Assembly: GCF_004363775.1 (NCBI RefSeq)
Contig: NZ_SNZE01000004.1
Coordinates: 1-64,000 of the forward strand
Length of the DNA: 64,000 nt
Reading direction: 5' to 3'
DNA from: Hydromonas duriensis
Lineage (GTDB): Bacteria; Pseudomonadota; Gammaproteobacteria; Burkholderiales; Burkholderiaceae
Shown here: positions 36,254 to 56,046 of the stretch, in pieces
Layout: the number at the start of each line of letters is the position of its first letter
How positions within the stretch are numbered: the first letter of the stretch is position 1
Translations under genes and position numbers: made by a program
The notes under the pieces: generated by a model
Database searches by the model: none
What the model was told of the DNA's origin: nothing
What the model saw: the letters and a program-made list of their open reading frames with translations, nothing else

Positions 36254-36593
36254 GTCTATCCTTTGTAAAGGGGCGGAAAATATAAAAAAGCAACTGTTTT
36301 TAACCTGCAAAAGCCAAGGCAAATAAAGCCAAAATGGCTAAGAGATTACCACGAATACTGAATTATAAAACAGAATGGCTTTAAACCCCATTCCCAATAA
36401 GATTTATGCGCGGGTTCGGTTAAAGGCTAGGTGCGTCCATCATCCAAAGGTGCATGGTGAATCATTGTCCATGTAAAAAAATGAAACAATTGTTGTTTTT
36501 GAGTTGGCAGTAAAAGCGTGGAGTGTCCATTTTGGTGGTTTTAGTAGCGAAAATGCTGCATGTGCACATTTTGTGTTTAATGCGCTTGTCATG

Positions 36594-36599
36594 TATAAT
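36594..36599 (+). promoter_or_regulatory. Promoter (-10) for the thrS operon
   Basis: A perfect TATAAT, with TTGTGT at 36571-36576 as a weak -35 at 17-bp spacing. Transcription would start near 36606, leaving a leader of about 210 nt before the thrS ATG. The stretch 36254-36570 behind ubiM holds no gene that I can support. Confidence 0.6.
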
Positions 36600-36662
36600 G
36601 GCGCGAATTGGCGTGAGGAAACGCCGCTTAATTTTTTTATGCCTTTTTTATGTTTTTTTTCG

Positions 36663-36719
36663 ATGCCGCAGATTATCTTAACCACCCATTCAACGATTAC
36701 GGCGACCTTGGCGTGGTGA
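36663..36719 (+). CDS. Candidate threonine-rich leader peptide of thrS
   Basis: An 18-codon reading frame, MPQIILTTHSTITATLAW, then TGA. Five codons are threonine (36681, 36684, 36693, 36699, 36705: ACC, ACC, ACG, ACG, ACC) and three are isoleucine. Compare the thrL leader of E. coli, which is rich in Thr and Ile. The TGA at 36717-36719 lies within a 7-nt segment (GGTGAGC, 36715-36721) complementary to GCTCACC (36747-36753) in the terminator's 5' arm. No clear ribosome-binding site precedes the ATG; the upstream stretch is a long T-run. An in-frame ATG at 36639 would add eight residues. It is 23 nt from the terminator stem. Confidence 0.62.
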   Translation: MPQIILTTHSTITATLAW

Positions 36720-36744
36720 GCGGTCATTGATGCTTGATACAATG

Positions 36745-36770
36745 CGGCTCACCTTAAGTGAGCCGTTTTT
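36745..36770 (+). terminator. Attenuator terminator upstream of thrS
   Basis: CGGCTCAC (36745-36752) pairs with GTGAGCCG (36758-36765) around CTTAA and is followed by TTTTT. It sits 49 bp before the thrS ATG and downstream of the Thr-rich leader, in the place expected for an attenuator. Bases 36747-36753 can pair instead with 36715-36721, an exclusive alternative that would prevent the terminator from forming. A 5-bp 1:2-type pairing (ACCAC, 36681-36685, with GTGGT, 36713-36717) is also possible. Confidence 0.75.
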
Positions 36771-36818
36771 GTATAACCCGTTTTTCAACTTTCAACCTGA
36801 CGACTGAACGAGAATTTT

Positions 36819-38726
36819 ATGATTAACATCACTTTACCTGACGGCTCCATTCGACAATTTGATGCGCCAGTGACGGTACACGGCGTGGCAGCGAGCATTG
36901 GCGCGGGCTTGGCAAAAGCAGCGCTGGCAGGGCGCGTTGATGGTGAGTTGGTCGACACCTCTTTCTTGATTGAGTCCGACGCGAGTTTAGCCATTGTCAC
37001 GGACAAAGACGCTGATGGCTTGGAAGTGATTCGTCATTCAACCGCGCACTTGCTCGCCTATGCCGTTAAACAACTGTTTCCCGATGCGCAGGTGACGATT
37101 GGTCCTGTGATTGACAACGGTTTTTATTATGACTTCGCTTATAAACGTCCATTTACGCCCGAGGATTTACTGGCGATTGAAGCCAAAATGACCGAATTGG
37201 CCAAAAAAGACGAGGTGGTGACGCGCGAAATATGGTCTCGTGATGATGCAGTGGCATTTTTTAAAGCGCAGGGCGAAGATTACAAAGCAGAGATCATCAG
37301 CAGTATTCCCGCTGAACAAAAGATTAGCTTGTATCGTGAAGGTGACTTTATCGACTTATGCCGCGGTCCACACGTGCCATCAACAGGAAAATTGAAAGTA
37401 TTTAAGTTGATGAAAGTCGCAGGCGCATACTGGCGCGGCGACTCGAAAAATGAAATGTTGCAGCGCGTGTACGGTACCGCTTGGGCCAAAAAAGAAGACC
37501 AAGCCGCATATTTGCACATGCTCGAAGAAGCCGAAAAACGCGACCATAGAAAACTCGGCAAAGCACTGGATTTATTCCACATGCAAGACGAAGCCCCTGG
37601 TTTGGTGTTTTGGCACGCCAAGGGCTGGAGCATCTGGCAAGAAGTCGAGCAATACATGCGTCGCGTCTATCGTGACAATGGCTATCAAGAGGTGAAAGGC
37701 CCGCAAATCATCGACCGCACTTTGTGGGAAAAAACGGGCCATTGGGATAATTACAAAGACAATATGTTCACCACCGAGTCGGAGAATCGCAGCTACGCGC
37801 TCAAGCCGATGAACTGCCCAGGACACATTCAAATTTACAACACAGGTTTACACAGCTACCGTGACCTGCCTTTGCGCTATGGTGAGTTTGGTCAATGCCA
37901 CCGTAACGAAACATCAGGCTCGTTGCACGGCATCATGCGTGTACGTGGCTTTACGCAGGATGATGGGCATATTTTTTGTACAGAAGAACAAATCGAAGCC
38001 GAAGTGGCTGCCTTTGATAAACTGGCGCGTAAAGTGTATAAAGACTTTGGTTTTGAAGAGCTGGCGGTCAAACTGGCCTTGCGCCCAGACAACCGCATCG
38101 GCTCAGATGAAACATGGGACAAAACCGAAAATGCGATGCGCGAAGCCATCCGCGCATCAGGTGCTCAATGGGAAGAACTACCAGGCGAAGGCGCGTTTTA
38201 TGGCCCGAAAATTGAATACCACTTAAAAGACTCGATTGGCCGCTCATGGCAATGTGGCACCATGCAGGTCGATGCGTTTATGCCCGAGCGTCTTGGGGCC
38301 ACCTATGTTGACGAAAATGACCAACGCCAAACGCCTGTGATGTTGCATCGTGCGATAGTTGGTTCGTTGGAGCGTTTTATCGGGATTTTGATTGAAAGCC
38401 ATGCGGGCGCATTGCCCACTTGGCTTGCACCTGTGCAAGTGGTCATTTGCAATATTTCTCAATATCAAGCCGAATATGTCGCACAAGTGGCACAAGAGTT
38501 GGAAAAACAAGGGCTTAGAGTGCAATTAGATTTGCGTAATGAGAAGATAACGTATAAAATTCGCGAGCACAGTTTGCAAAAAGTGCCTTATATCTTGGTC
38601 GTCGGTGACAAAGAGCGCGATAATCACGCTGTTGCCGTGCGTGCCCGTGGTAACCAAGACTTAGGCGTAATGGGTGTCGATGCGTTTGTTGCACACATCA
38701 AAGCTGAAGTTGAGGCACGACAATAA
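36819..38726 (+). CDS. thrS: Threonyl-tRNA synthetase
   Basis: A 635-residue class II synthetase. The TGS domain is at the start ([26 protein letters not shown]). The editing domain is next, with [34 protein letters not shown] and the zinc-binding [13 protein letters not shown]. The catalytic domain contains [10 protein letters not shown] (Cys, zinc ligand), [34 protein letters not shown] (motif 2), and [16 protein letters not shown] (motif 3). A C-terminal anticodon-binding domain closes the protein. Full length. It leads the translation cluster thrS-infC-rpmI-rplT-pheS-pheT. Confidence 0.98.
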
Positions 38727-38864: not shown

Positions 38865-39395
38865 ATCGCTACGCAAGCAAACAAAATGCAGCATCGCATC
38901 AACGGCGAAATCACTGCGCGCGAAATTCGATTGATTGGCATTGATGGCGAAGCCATTGGCATCACACCAACCCGCGAAGCCATGCGCATGGCCGAAGAAA
39001 TTGATACTGATTTAGTTGAAATCTCGCCGAACGCTGAACCGCCCGTATGTCGCTTGATGGATTACGGCAAGTTCAAGTTCCAAGAACAGAAAAAAGCCGC
39101 TGAAGCCCGCGCCAAGCAAAAAATCATCCAGATTAAGGAAATCAAATTCCGTCCTGGAACAGACGAAAACGACTATCAAGTTAAATTACGCAATGTCAAA
39201 CGCTTCCTTGAAGATGGCGATAAAGTCAAAATCACATTGCGTTTTCGCGGTCGTGAAATGGCGCACCAAGAAATTGGTATGCAGCTTTTGATTCGTGTTC
39301 GAGATGAGTTGGCTGAGATGTCGCAAGTCGAATCCATGCCAAAGTTGGAAGGTCGCCAAATGATTATGATGTTGGCGCCACCGAAGAAAAAATAA
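38865..39395 (+). CDS. infC: Translation initiation factor IF-3 (ATC start)
   Basis: A 176-residue factor that binds the 30S subunit and proofreads the initiator tRNA and start codon. The family's start region ([21 protein letters not shown]) begins a few residues downstream of the ATC at 38865, which has GGAG at 38855-38858 and a good 6-nt spacing. The first ATG (38886) is too far from this ribosome-binding motif. A rare ATC/ATT start is the known feature of infC that allows IF3 to repress itself. The body includes [27 protein letters not shown], the linker [11 protein letters not shown] and the C-terminal domain. Confidence 0.93.
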
Positions 39396-39398
39396 TCG

Positions 39399-39429
39399 GT
39401 CAAAAAATAGTTTTAAATCATTTTTTGAC
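39399..39429. other. AT-rich hairpin between infC and rpmI
   Basis: GTCAAAAAAT (39399-39408) pairs with ATTTTTTGAC (39420-39429). Weak as a terminator, but it lies in a 189-bp leader before rpmI that could also hold the L20 autoregulatory site known for rpmI-rplT. I could not identify an L20-binding structure with certainty. Confidence 0.45.
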
Positions 39430-39584
39430 TTAAAAATTATTTGAGTTTGTGTGAACAAACCCAAATAAGGCTGAATGAGGTGCGTCAGGGCAACCACGCA
39501 CCCACATTCAATTAAAAGTGAATAGGGTTCCCAAGTGTCTCTAAGTTCGAGTCCACCTGTATTCATGTTAAAAACGGAGTTGTT

Positions 39585-39782
39585 ATGCCTAAAATGAAGA
39601 CCAAAAGCAGCGCCAAAAAGCGCTTCGTGGTGCGTCCAGGCGGGACTGTTAAACGCGGTCAAGCCTTCAAACGTCATATCCTGACCAAGAAGACCACCAA
39701 AAACAAACGCCACTTGCGTGGTGCTGTAAACGTTTCAGCTGCAGATTCAGCCGCAGTGAAATCTTTGATGCCTTACGCTTAA
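39585..39782 (+). CDS. rpmI: 50S ribosomal protein L35
   Basis: A 65-residue basic protein with the L35 pattern [32 protein letters not shown] and [16 protein letters not shown]. It assembles into the large subunit. GGAG precedes the ATG at 7 nt. rplT follows after 25 bp. Confidence 0.97.
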
Positions 39783-39807
39783 CCCAACCTAAACCAAGGA
39801 GTAATAT

Positions 39808-40164
39808 ATGCCTAGAGTAAAACGTGGGGTCACAGCAAGAGCCCGTCATAAGAAAGTTTTAGCCCTCGCCAAGGGTTATCGTGGTCGTCGTAAAAACGTC
39901 TATCGCGTCGCCAAACAAGCGGTGATGCGTGCAGGCCAATACGCTTACCGCGATCGCCGCAACAAAAAGCGCGTATTCCGTGCTTTGTGGATTGCGCGTA
40001 TCAATGCAGCCGCTCGTCAAAACGAGATGACTTACAGCAAATTCATGAACGGCTTGAAAAAAGCATCGATTGAAATTGACCGTAAAGTCCTCGCTGACTT
40101 GGCCGTATTTGATAAACCTGCATTTGCAGCGATTGTTGCAAAAGCAAAAGCAGCGTTGGCGTAA
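39808..40164 (+). CDS. rplT: 50S ribosomal protein L20
   Basis: A 118-residue protein beginning [32 protein letters not shown], with [30 protein letters not shown] further on. L20 is an early assembly protein and, in E. coli, represses translation of rpmI and rplT. AAGGAG precedes the ATG by 8 nt. Confidence 0.98.
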
Positions 40165-40183: not shown

Positions 40184-40220
40184 AAATCGAGGCAAACCAT
40201 TCGGTTTGCCTCGTTTTTTC
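40184..40220 (+). terminator. Terminator after rplT
   Basis: CGAGGCAAACC (40188-40198) pairs with GGTTTGCCTCG (40203-40213) and is followed by TTTTTTC. A strong terminator that separates rplT from pheS. Confidence 0.88.
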
Positions 40221-55625: not shown

Positions 55626-55701
55626 GGGTGTTTAGCTCAGTTGGTAGAGCGGCGCCCTTACAAGGCGTAGGTCGGGAGTTCGAGCCTCTCAACACCCACC
55701 A
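55626..55701 (+). tRNA. tRNA-Val (anticodon TAC), copy 1
   Basis: 76 nt: acceptor GGGTGTT with AACACCC, discriminator A, encoded CCA. The anticodon loop CTTACAA gives TAC, reading GUN codons. Copy 2 (55870-55945) is identical as far as I can compare by eye. Confidence 0.97.
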
Positions 55702-55720
55702 GTCTTAAGATTAAAATTTT

Positions 55721-55797
55721 GGAGCGGTAGTTCAGTTGGTTAGAATACCGGCCTGTCACGCCGGGGGTCGCGGGTTCGAGTCCCGTCCGCTCCGCCA
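55721..55797 (+). tRNA. tRNA-Asp (anticodon GTC), copy 1
   Basis: 77 nt: acceptor GGAGCGG with CCGCTCC, discriminator G, encoded CCA. The loop CTGTCAC gives GTC. The T-loop reads TTCGAGT where copy 2 has TTCGAGC, the only difference I found. Confidence 0.97.
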
Positions 55798-55869
55798 AAA
55801 AATAACGTAAACACAGTTTATGTTAAAACCTTGTAAATCAAGGTTAAGTGACTATAGTTTTGAAATTGT

Positions 55870-55945
55870 GGGTGTTTAGCTCAGTTGGTAGAGCGGCGCC
55901 CTTACAAGGCGTAGGTCGGGAGTTCGAGCCTCTCAACACCCACCA
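55870..55945 (+). tRNA. tRNA-Val (anticodon TAC), copy 2
   Basis: Same sequence as copy 1. It sits 72 bp after tRNA-Asp copy 1. Confidence 0.97.
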
Positions 55946-55969
55946 CGATTTCAATAGCTAAAAAAAGTT

Positions 55970-56046
55970 GGAGCGGTAGTTCAGTTGGTTAGAATACCGG
56001 CCTGTCACGCCGGGGGTCGCGGGTTCGAGCCCCGTCCGCTCCGCCA
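55970..56046 (+). tRNA. tRNA-Asp (anticodon GTC), copy 2
   Basis: As copy 1 except for a single T-to-C change in the T-loop. Part of the tandem Val-Asp-Val-Asp array between hupB and ppiD. Confidence 0.97.

Follow-up and report, generated by a model that had tools for sequence, protein, structure and literature searches.

Ribosome-mediated attenuation is a textbook mechanism. In Escherichia coli, the thrABC attenuator reads Thr and Ile codons in the control of threonine biosynthesis, and the pheST genes are subject to leader-peptide attenuation via Phe codons in pheM. The gene for threonyl-tRNA synthetase, thrS, is essential, and to our knowledge detailed accounts of its control exist only for E. 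coli, where it involves a protein operator, and for Firmicutes, where a T-box RNA ahead of thrS binds tRNA directly. The pheST attenuator is cited as an example in the available portion of PMC1262725. In the accessible text of Naville and Gautheret (2010; PMC2965389) threonyl-tRNA synthetase is named once, as a self-regulating E. coli protein. According to the excerpts available from PMC8079986, a Thr-containing leader peptide, ThrL, precedes thrS in Streptomyces lividans TK24 and attenuation has been proposed. The thrL frame described in these excerpts has two Thr codons, is leaderless and is followed by a single hairpin devoid of a U-rich sequence, such that termination is unclear in this case. 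Our literature search found no report of a thrS leader peptide for Burkholderiales or betaproteobacteria; an earlier prediction may exist, most likely in Vitreschak (2004) or Lopatovskaya (2010).

Architecture and predicted folding of the thrS upstream region

The window studied here is a stretch of 64,000 nucleotides from the genome of Hydromonas duriensis (2.43 Mb, 77 contigs). An open reading frame on the plus strand (36819–38726) encodes threonyl-tRNA synthetase as judged by its Pfam domains (TGS, tRNA_SAD, tRNA-synt_2b and HGTP_anticodon) and is presumed to be the controlled gene. It is followed by infC, rpmI and rplT (38886–40164, same strand), for which gene order and strand suggest co-transcription, and then by pheS and pheT, all identified via Pfam. 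The gap between rplT and pheS features a strong hairpin (40188–40213) with T-runs on both strands, and inspection by eye of the intergenic sequence ahead of pheS in the window revealed no Phe-rich leader. In another part of the window (55626–56046), a tRNA-Val(TAC)/tRNA-Asp(GTC) pair is present twice in tandem.

An earlier sequence-only reading had proposed a threonine attenuator upstream of thrS, made up of a TATAAT box, an 18-codon frame with five Thr codons and a TGA stop, and a terminator ahead of the thrS ATG. All of these elements were found at the same coordinates when the sequence was read again. The probable promoter (36571–36599, plus strand) consists of hexamers recognized by eye, a weak -35 element TTGTGT (36571–36576) that matches the consensus in three of six positions and, after 17 nt, a perfect -10 element TATAAT (36594–36599); the output of a consensus promoter scan did not contain 36571–36599. 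Judging from the -10 box, transcription would start at about 36606, giving rise to a 5' untranslated leader (36606–36662) in which a short GC hairpin (36609–36626) is followed by a U-rich stretch. This hairpin and a more distant T-run (together 36609–36640) are thus located directly past the putative transcription start.

The leader peptide frame, MPQIILTTHSTITATLAW, extends from the ATG at 36663 to the TGA at 36717–36719 (plus strand), with Thr codons at 36681, 36684, 36693, 36699 and 36705. The frame stays open 5' of 36663 and contains a second in-frame ATG at 36639; of the two, 36663 was selected as the start on account of its location with respect to the Thr codons in congeners. We agree with the sequence-only reading that a clear ribosome-binding site is lacking, in that sequence inspection revealed no Shine-Dalgarno sequence upstream of either ATG. 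The stop codon is covered by the putative antiterminator 5' element GGTGAGC (36715–36721), while its 3' counterpart GCTCACC (36747–36753) is at the same time part of the 5' arm of a predicted intrinsic terminator hairpin with T-run (36744–36770; all plus strand). The arms of this terminator, CGGCTCAC (36745–36752) and GTGAGCCG (36758–36765), are followed by TTTTT (36766–36770), and its folding energy amounts to -15.7 kcal/mol (z = -6.2).

The exact complementarity of GGTGAGC and GCTCACC asserted by the sequence-only reading was recovered as an exact inverted repeat of 7 nt. Ten inverted-repeat pairs, including this one, were detected in the 431-nt stretch examined, so that the 7-nt match by itself could be due to chance. 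The segment 36712–36755 comprising the antiterminator folds with -19.4 kcal/mol (z = -4.1), and the z scores of antiterminator and terminator in conjunction with recurrence in relatives place the arrangement beyond chance. A ribosome modelled on any of the first four Thr codons allowed the complete set of seven antiterminator pairs to form before the 3' arm of the terminator existed. With the ribosome at the fifth Thr codon three such pairs persisted, and with the ribosome at the leader stop none was left and the terminator was predicted. In full-length RNA, the terminator prevails in all modelled ribosome states and the switch must therefore be a kinetic competition, as it is in known attenuators. 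In the ribosome-free fold, part of the terminator 5' arm (region 3) pairs with the start of the leader, and a classical protector (1:2) hairpin is thus not clear; a candidate for such a protector or pause hairpin (36660–36735) reaches -22.8 kcal/mol with a z score of just -1.7. Taken as attenuator features, the region offers a leader frame with a cluster of cognate codons, a predicted intrinsic terminator before the gene and a predicted antiterminator that excludes it and whose upstream arm a ribosome at the leader stop could reach.

Recurrence of the Thr leader upstream of thrS

Our comparison covered 209 regions upstream of thrS. Eighty of these are named loci, the best 80 of 586, a few of which (Dyella, Pseudoxanthomonas and others) do not belong to the order; 30 are family-search loci obtained from 200 searched genomes, and 99 are further regions, of which 40 represent the family of the window and 59 represent 49 additional families of the order (one to three genomes each). 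A strict Thr leader was defined as an ATG frame of 7 to 28 codons with at least three Thr within a stretch of six, and terminators were called by a folding scan. Because loop lengths vary between clades, a duplex test with cognate versus permuted partners was chosen in place of a fixed-length stem alignment across clades.

Strict Thr leaders were detected in 102 of the 209 regions, and in 98 a terminator lies 20–63 nt past the leader stop. These 98 regions comprise 39/80 of the named loci (again, the best 80 of 586), 10/30 of the family-search loci, 38/40 of the further regions from the family and 11/59 of those from other families, the latter spread over 10 of the 49 families, with 39 families lacking the strict pair. 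Four strict leaders were excluded from the terminator-linked count, L014, L162, L179 and L185, with gaps of 117, 102, -2 and 162 nt, respectively; L014 has a normal MTPRTTT leader with a far-off terminator, and the frame in L162 looks tRNA-derived. By sequence, the Thr leader is present in named loci of Burkholderia, Cupriavidus, Ralstonia, Janthinobacterium, Acidovorax and Achromobacter. Outside the order, two of 40 gammaproteobacterial regions conformed to the strict rule, one with the frame MSTTTAQR and the other with a frame that looks tRNA-derived, and ten of the 40 contain a terminator-like hairpin. Rfam searches at gathering threshold returned no family for the leader in the window or in 15 loci, and a search of 36400–36900 of the window up to E = 5 returned neither a family for the leader nor a Thr_leader match.

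Of 168 thinned regions, 70 contain a Thr frame under this rule, compared with 2.14 after dinucleotide shuffling and 7 on the antisense strand, an approximately 30-fold excess of Thr clusters over shuffles. For other residues the respective numbers in the same regions and in shuffles are 26 vs. 4.3 (Val), 4 vs. 1.2 (Cys) and 5 vs. 2.0 (Phe), with the raised Val count attributed to frames within an upstream tRNA-Val gene. These counts also bear on the idea that the leader senses general ribosome stalling rather than threonine, or that the frame MFFFDAADYLNHPFNDYGDLGVVSGH starting at 36650 is read instead. This idea draws on the missing Shine-Dalgarno sequence, which leaves the ATG in use unmarked, on three Phe codons in the frame from 36650 and on the unusual CGA codon adjoining Thr in leaders of other genera. 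With Thr by far the most enriched residue and Phe clusters in just five of 168 regions, we consider it improbable.

In the close relatives, GGTGAGC and GCTCAC are invariant in all eight aligned sequences, which stem from the genus of the window and from a second genus (g22), at a mean column identity of 45%. The leaders of congeners are rich in Thr and unlike in sequence (MAFVSFDTTTTTHKLAR, MTSVFSATTTTTTTPLAW and MFSFNATTFTTPQNL), the leader of the second genus reads MTLFTDTRTTTTTVTVAW, and locus L085 features seven consecutive Thr. GGTGAGC overlaps the leader stop in seven of the eight sequences and follows immediately after the stop in L086. In L083, L087 and L089, a TATAATGC box is situated 5' of the leader or of tRNA-Val. 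More distant leaders take the forms MTPRTTT... in Massilia, Janthinobacterium and Cupriavidus, MTPRTLTETTSERR in Burkholderia and Paraburkholderia, MTPRTTSEMLTGR in Acidovorax and MFFPLARTTTRNFRPMSR in Achromobacter. The comparison of relatives that the sequence-only reading had called for thus speaks for attenuation, since congeners and many Burkholderiales likewise combine a short frame rich in Thr with a terminator and, close to the leader stop, a pairing that may compete with it.

Relatives that keep the terminator and have lost the Thr codons had been named in advance as an argument against the attenuator. Across the order this argument applies in part: 68 of the 111 regions without the strict leader-terminator pair have a terminator-like hairpin, and the hairpin alone consequently proves little. 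In the lineage of the window it does not apply, as the Thr frame is present in all eight regions (the window and L083–L089; congener G076 is outside this set). Among the 68 are ten of 19 loci from genus g13, which we take to be Polynucleobacter. The Thr leader, and with it the strict pair, is absent from all 19 (L090, L093–L109 and L111), and the ten retain a hairpin with T-run before thrS. Together with one locus of genus g23, these 19 constitute the 20 family-search loci that do not have the strict pair.

Across 66 thinned members, the leader-stop segment pairs with its own terminator arm at -13.1 kcal/mol compared to -12.0 kcal/mol with the arms of others (0/5000 permutations) and -11.3 kcal/mol for shuffled leader segments. 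For 30 hand-chosen members, the values are -13.5 vs. -11.9 kcal/mol (30/20000 permutations). The own arm is the best partner in 3/66 thinned and 5/30 hand-chosen members, the window being among these five. The cognate pairing effect across members is modest, and related members remain in both sets. The predicted switch has the expected direction in 21 of the 30 hand-chosen members, is opposite in five and unchanged in four. The case for an antiterminator is thus weaker across the order than for the window and its genus.

A degenerate MTPR-type pattern matched 14 times in 20 genomes, 11 times just 5' of thrS, compared with a single match for the reversed control; all 11 matches at thrS use CGA and the other three CGC or CGG. 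No match occurred in eight of the 20 genomes including that of the window, where leaders are different or absent. In the 66 thinned leaders, 87/146 Arg codons are CGA vs. 35/1459 in thrS of members with full loci; rare as it is in thrS genes, this codon hardly varies among the MTPRT-type leaders found in L002–L210. Likewise, ACT or ACA make up 145/287 of the Thr codons in the thinned leaders vs. 130/967 in thrS. This codon bias suggests a constraint on RNA or on decoding speed in addition to that on the peptide.

The neighbouring tRNA-Val and a possible translational operator

In many of the regions a tRNA-Val(GAC) gene is located upstream of thrS, and the hairpin might merely be the 3' terminator of the tRNA transcript, with the Thr frame a coincidence. 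ARAGORN located tRNA-Val(gac) within 450 nt 5' of thrS (less at contig ends) in 67 of the 98 leader-terminator regions, and hairpins also occur in regions devoid of a strict Thr frame. The same tRNA precedes thrS in 68 of the 111 other regions and, in other gammaproteobacterial orders, in 24 of 40 regions, so that tRNA and thrS are neighbours more widely than the leader occurs. In 31 of the 98 regions ARAGORN detected no tRNA within that stretch. The window is one of these, and like L083 and L084 it keeps the Thr frame without an upstream tRNA. The closest tRNA-Val(gac) match in the window's genome resides on a different contig (G000:C15:14575–14651, i.e., 1501–1577 of locus L254). Inspection by eye of 300 nt there showed a separate hairpin with a T-rich stretch past this tRNA and no Thr cluster. 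The tRNA with its own hairpin on one contig and the leader with its terminator at thrS on another argue against a mere tRNA terminator, and the roughly 30-fold excess of Thr clusters argues against coincidence, so that we regard this explanation as very improbable.

Several further observations concern these tRNA genes. The tRNA-Val(GAC) is located away from thrS not only in the genome of the window but also in genomes G066 and G056. The TATAAT box that precedes the leader in the window resembles the one before the tRNA in L087 and L089. In Massilia, Rugamonas and Janthinobacterium, ARAGORN placed tRNA-Val(gac) before the leader (L002 2746–2822, L003 2593–2803 and L005 2554–2787), with two copies in L003 and L005. 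Rfam at gathering threshold did not report the tRNA-Val of L002 and L005, and by eye the anticodon loop seems to carry C where U33 would be expected.

Threonyl-tRNA synthetase might also repress its own translation via a tRNA-like operator ahead of the start codon, as is established for thrS in E. coli, with the leader not being a sensor. Here this is very improbable indeed: no stable structure was predicted for 36769–36850, the only stretch folded in this respect (-4.0 kcal/mol, z = +1.4), and an operator leaves the Thr frames unexplained.

Proposed mechanism and relation to described systems

Sequence and computation establish the elements, their mutual exclusion and their recurrence at thrS in relatives, and the arrangement is real and most probably functional. 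With a probability of about 0.88, it represents a ribosome-mediated transcription attenuator that senses charging of threonyl-tRNA and has thrS, probably along with the genes that follow, under its control. We infer from the sequence that the leader is translated, that transcription does terminate early and that this responds to charging of Thr-tRNA. Transcripts would start at about 36606. With plentiful Thr-tRNA, the ribosome would reach the leader stop and mask GGTGAGC (36715–36721), whereupon the terminator (36744–36770) would fold and end transcription. Upon scarcity of charged Thr-tRNA, the ribosome would pause on the Thr codons and GGTGAGC could pair with GCTCACC (36747–36753) ahead of synthesis of the terminator 3' arm, allowing RNA polymerase to continue into thrS.

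If true, a Thr leader at thrS would constitute a third solution beside the protein operator of E. coli and the T-box of Firmicutes, and it may couple threonine supply to IF3 and two ribosomal proteins. More speculatively, and rather doubtfully, tRNA-Val(GAC), Thr leader and thrS could form one module in many Burkholderiales. The 5' end of the leader RNA would then arise from 3' processing of the tRNA, the rare but almost invariant CGA-ACN codon pair of MTPRT-type leaders would both pace the ribosome and serve as a switch arm, and threonine charging would set ThrRS, IF3, L35 and L20 from one transcript.

With the E. coli thrABC leader (thrL; Rfam Thr_leader), the window shares a peptide rich in Thr codons, an antiterminator competing with a terminator and, as a prediction, the sensing of charged Thr-tRNA. 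It differs in its target, as thrL regulates the biosynthesis of threonine, and in that thrL reads Ile codons as well. Firmicutes T-box leaders of thrS likewise exert charged-tRNA control of thrS through termination, which is predicted for the window. In their case, however, the RNA binds tRNA directly, and the T-box covariance model yielded no match, neither in the whole window at gathering threshold nor in 36400–36900 up to E = 5. The pheST (pheM) system of E. coli resembles the mechanism proposed for the window in that a proteobacterial operon for an aminoacyl-tRNA synthetase is attenuated through a leader peptide, but combines Phe codons with pheST, whereas here Thr codons are combined with thrS at the opposite end of the same gene cluster. 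The mechanism of attenuation as such is known, and for thrS a weaker case has been published in S. lividans, as far as the available text of PMC8079986 goes. On this basis, thrL-thrS of S. lividans is the nearest precedent, though from another phylum, and compared with its description there the window stands out by five Thr codons (seven consecutive ones in L085), a clear predicted terminator plus antiterminator, and wide recurrence.
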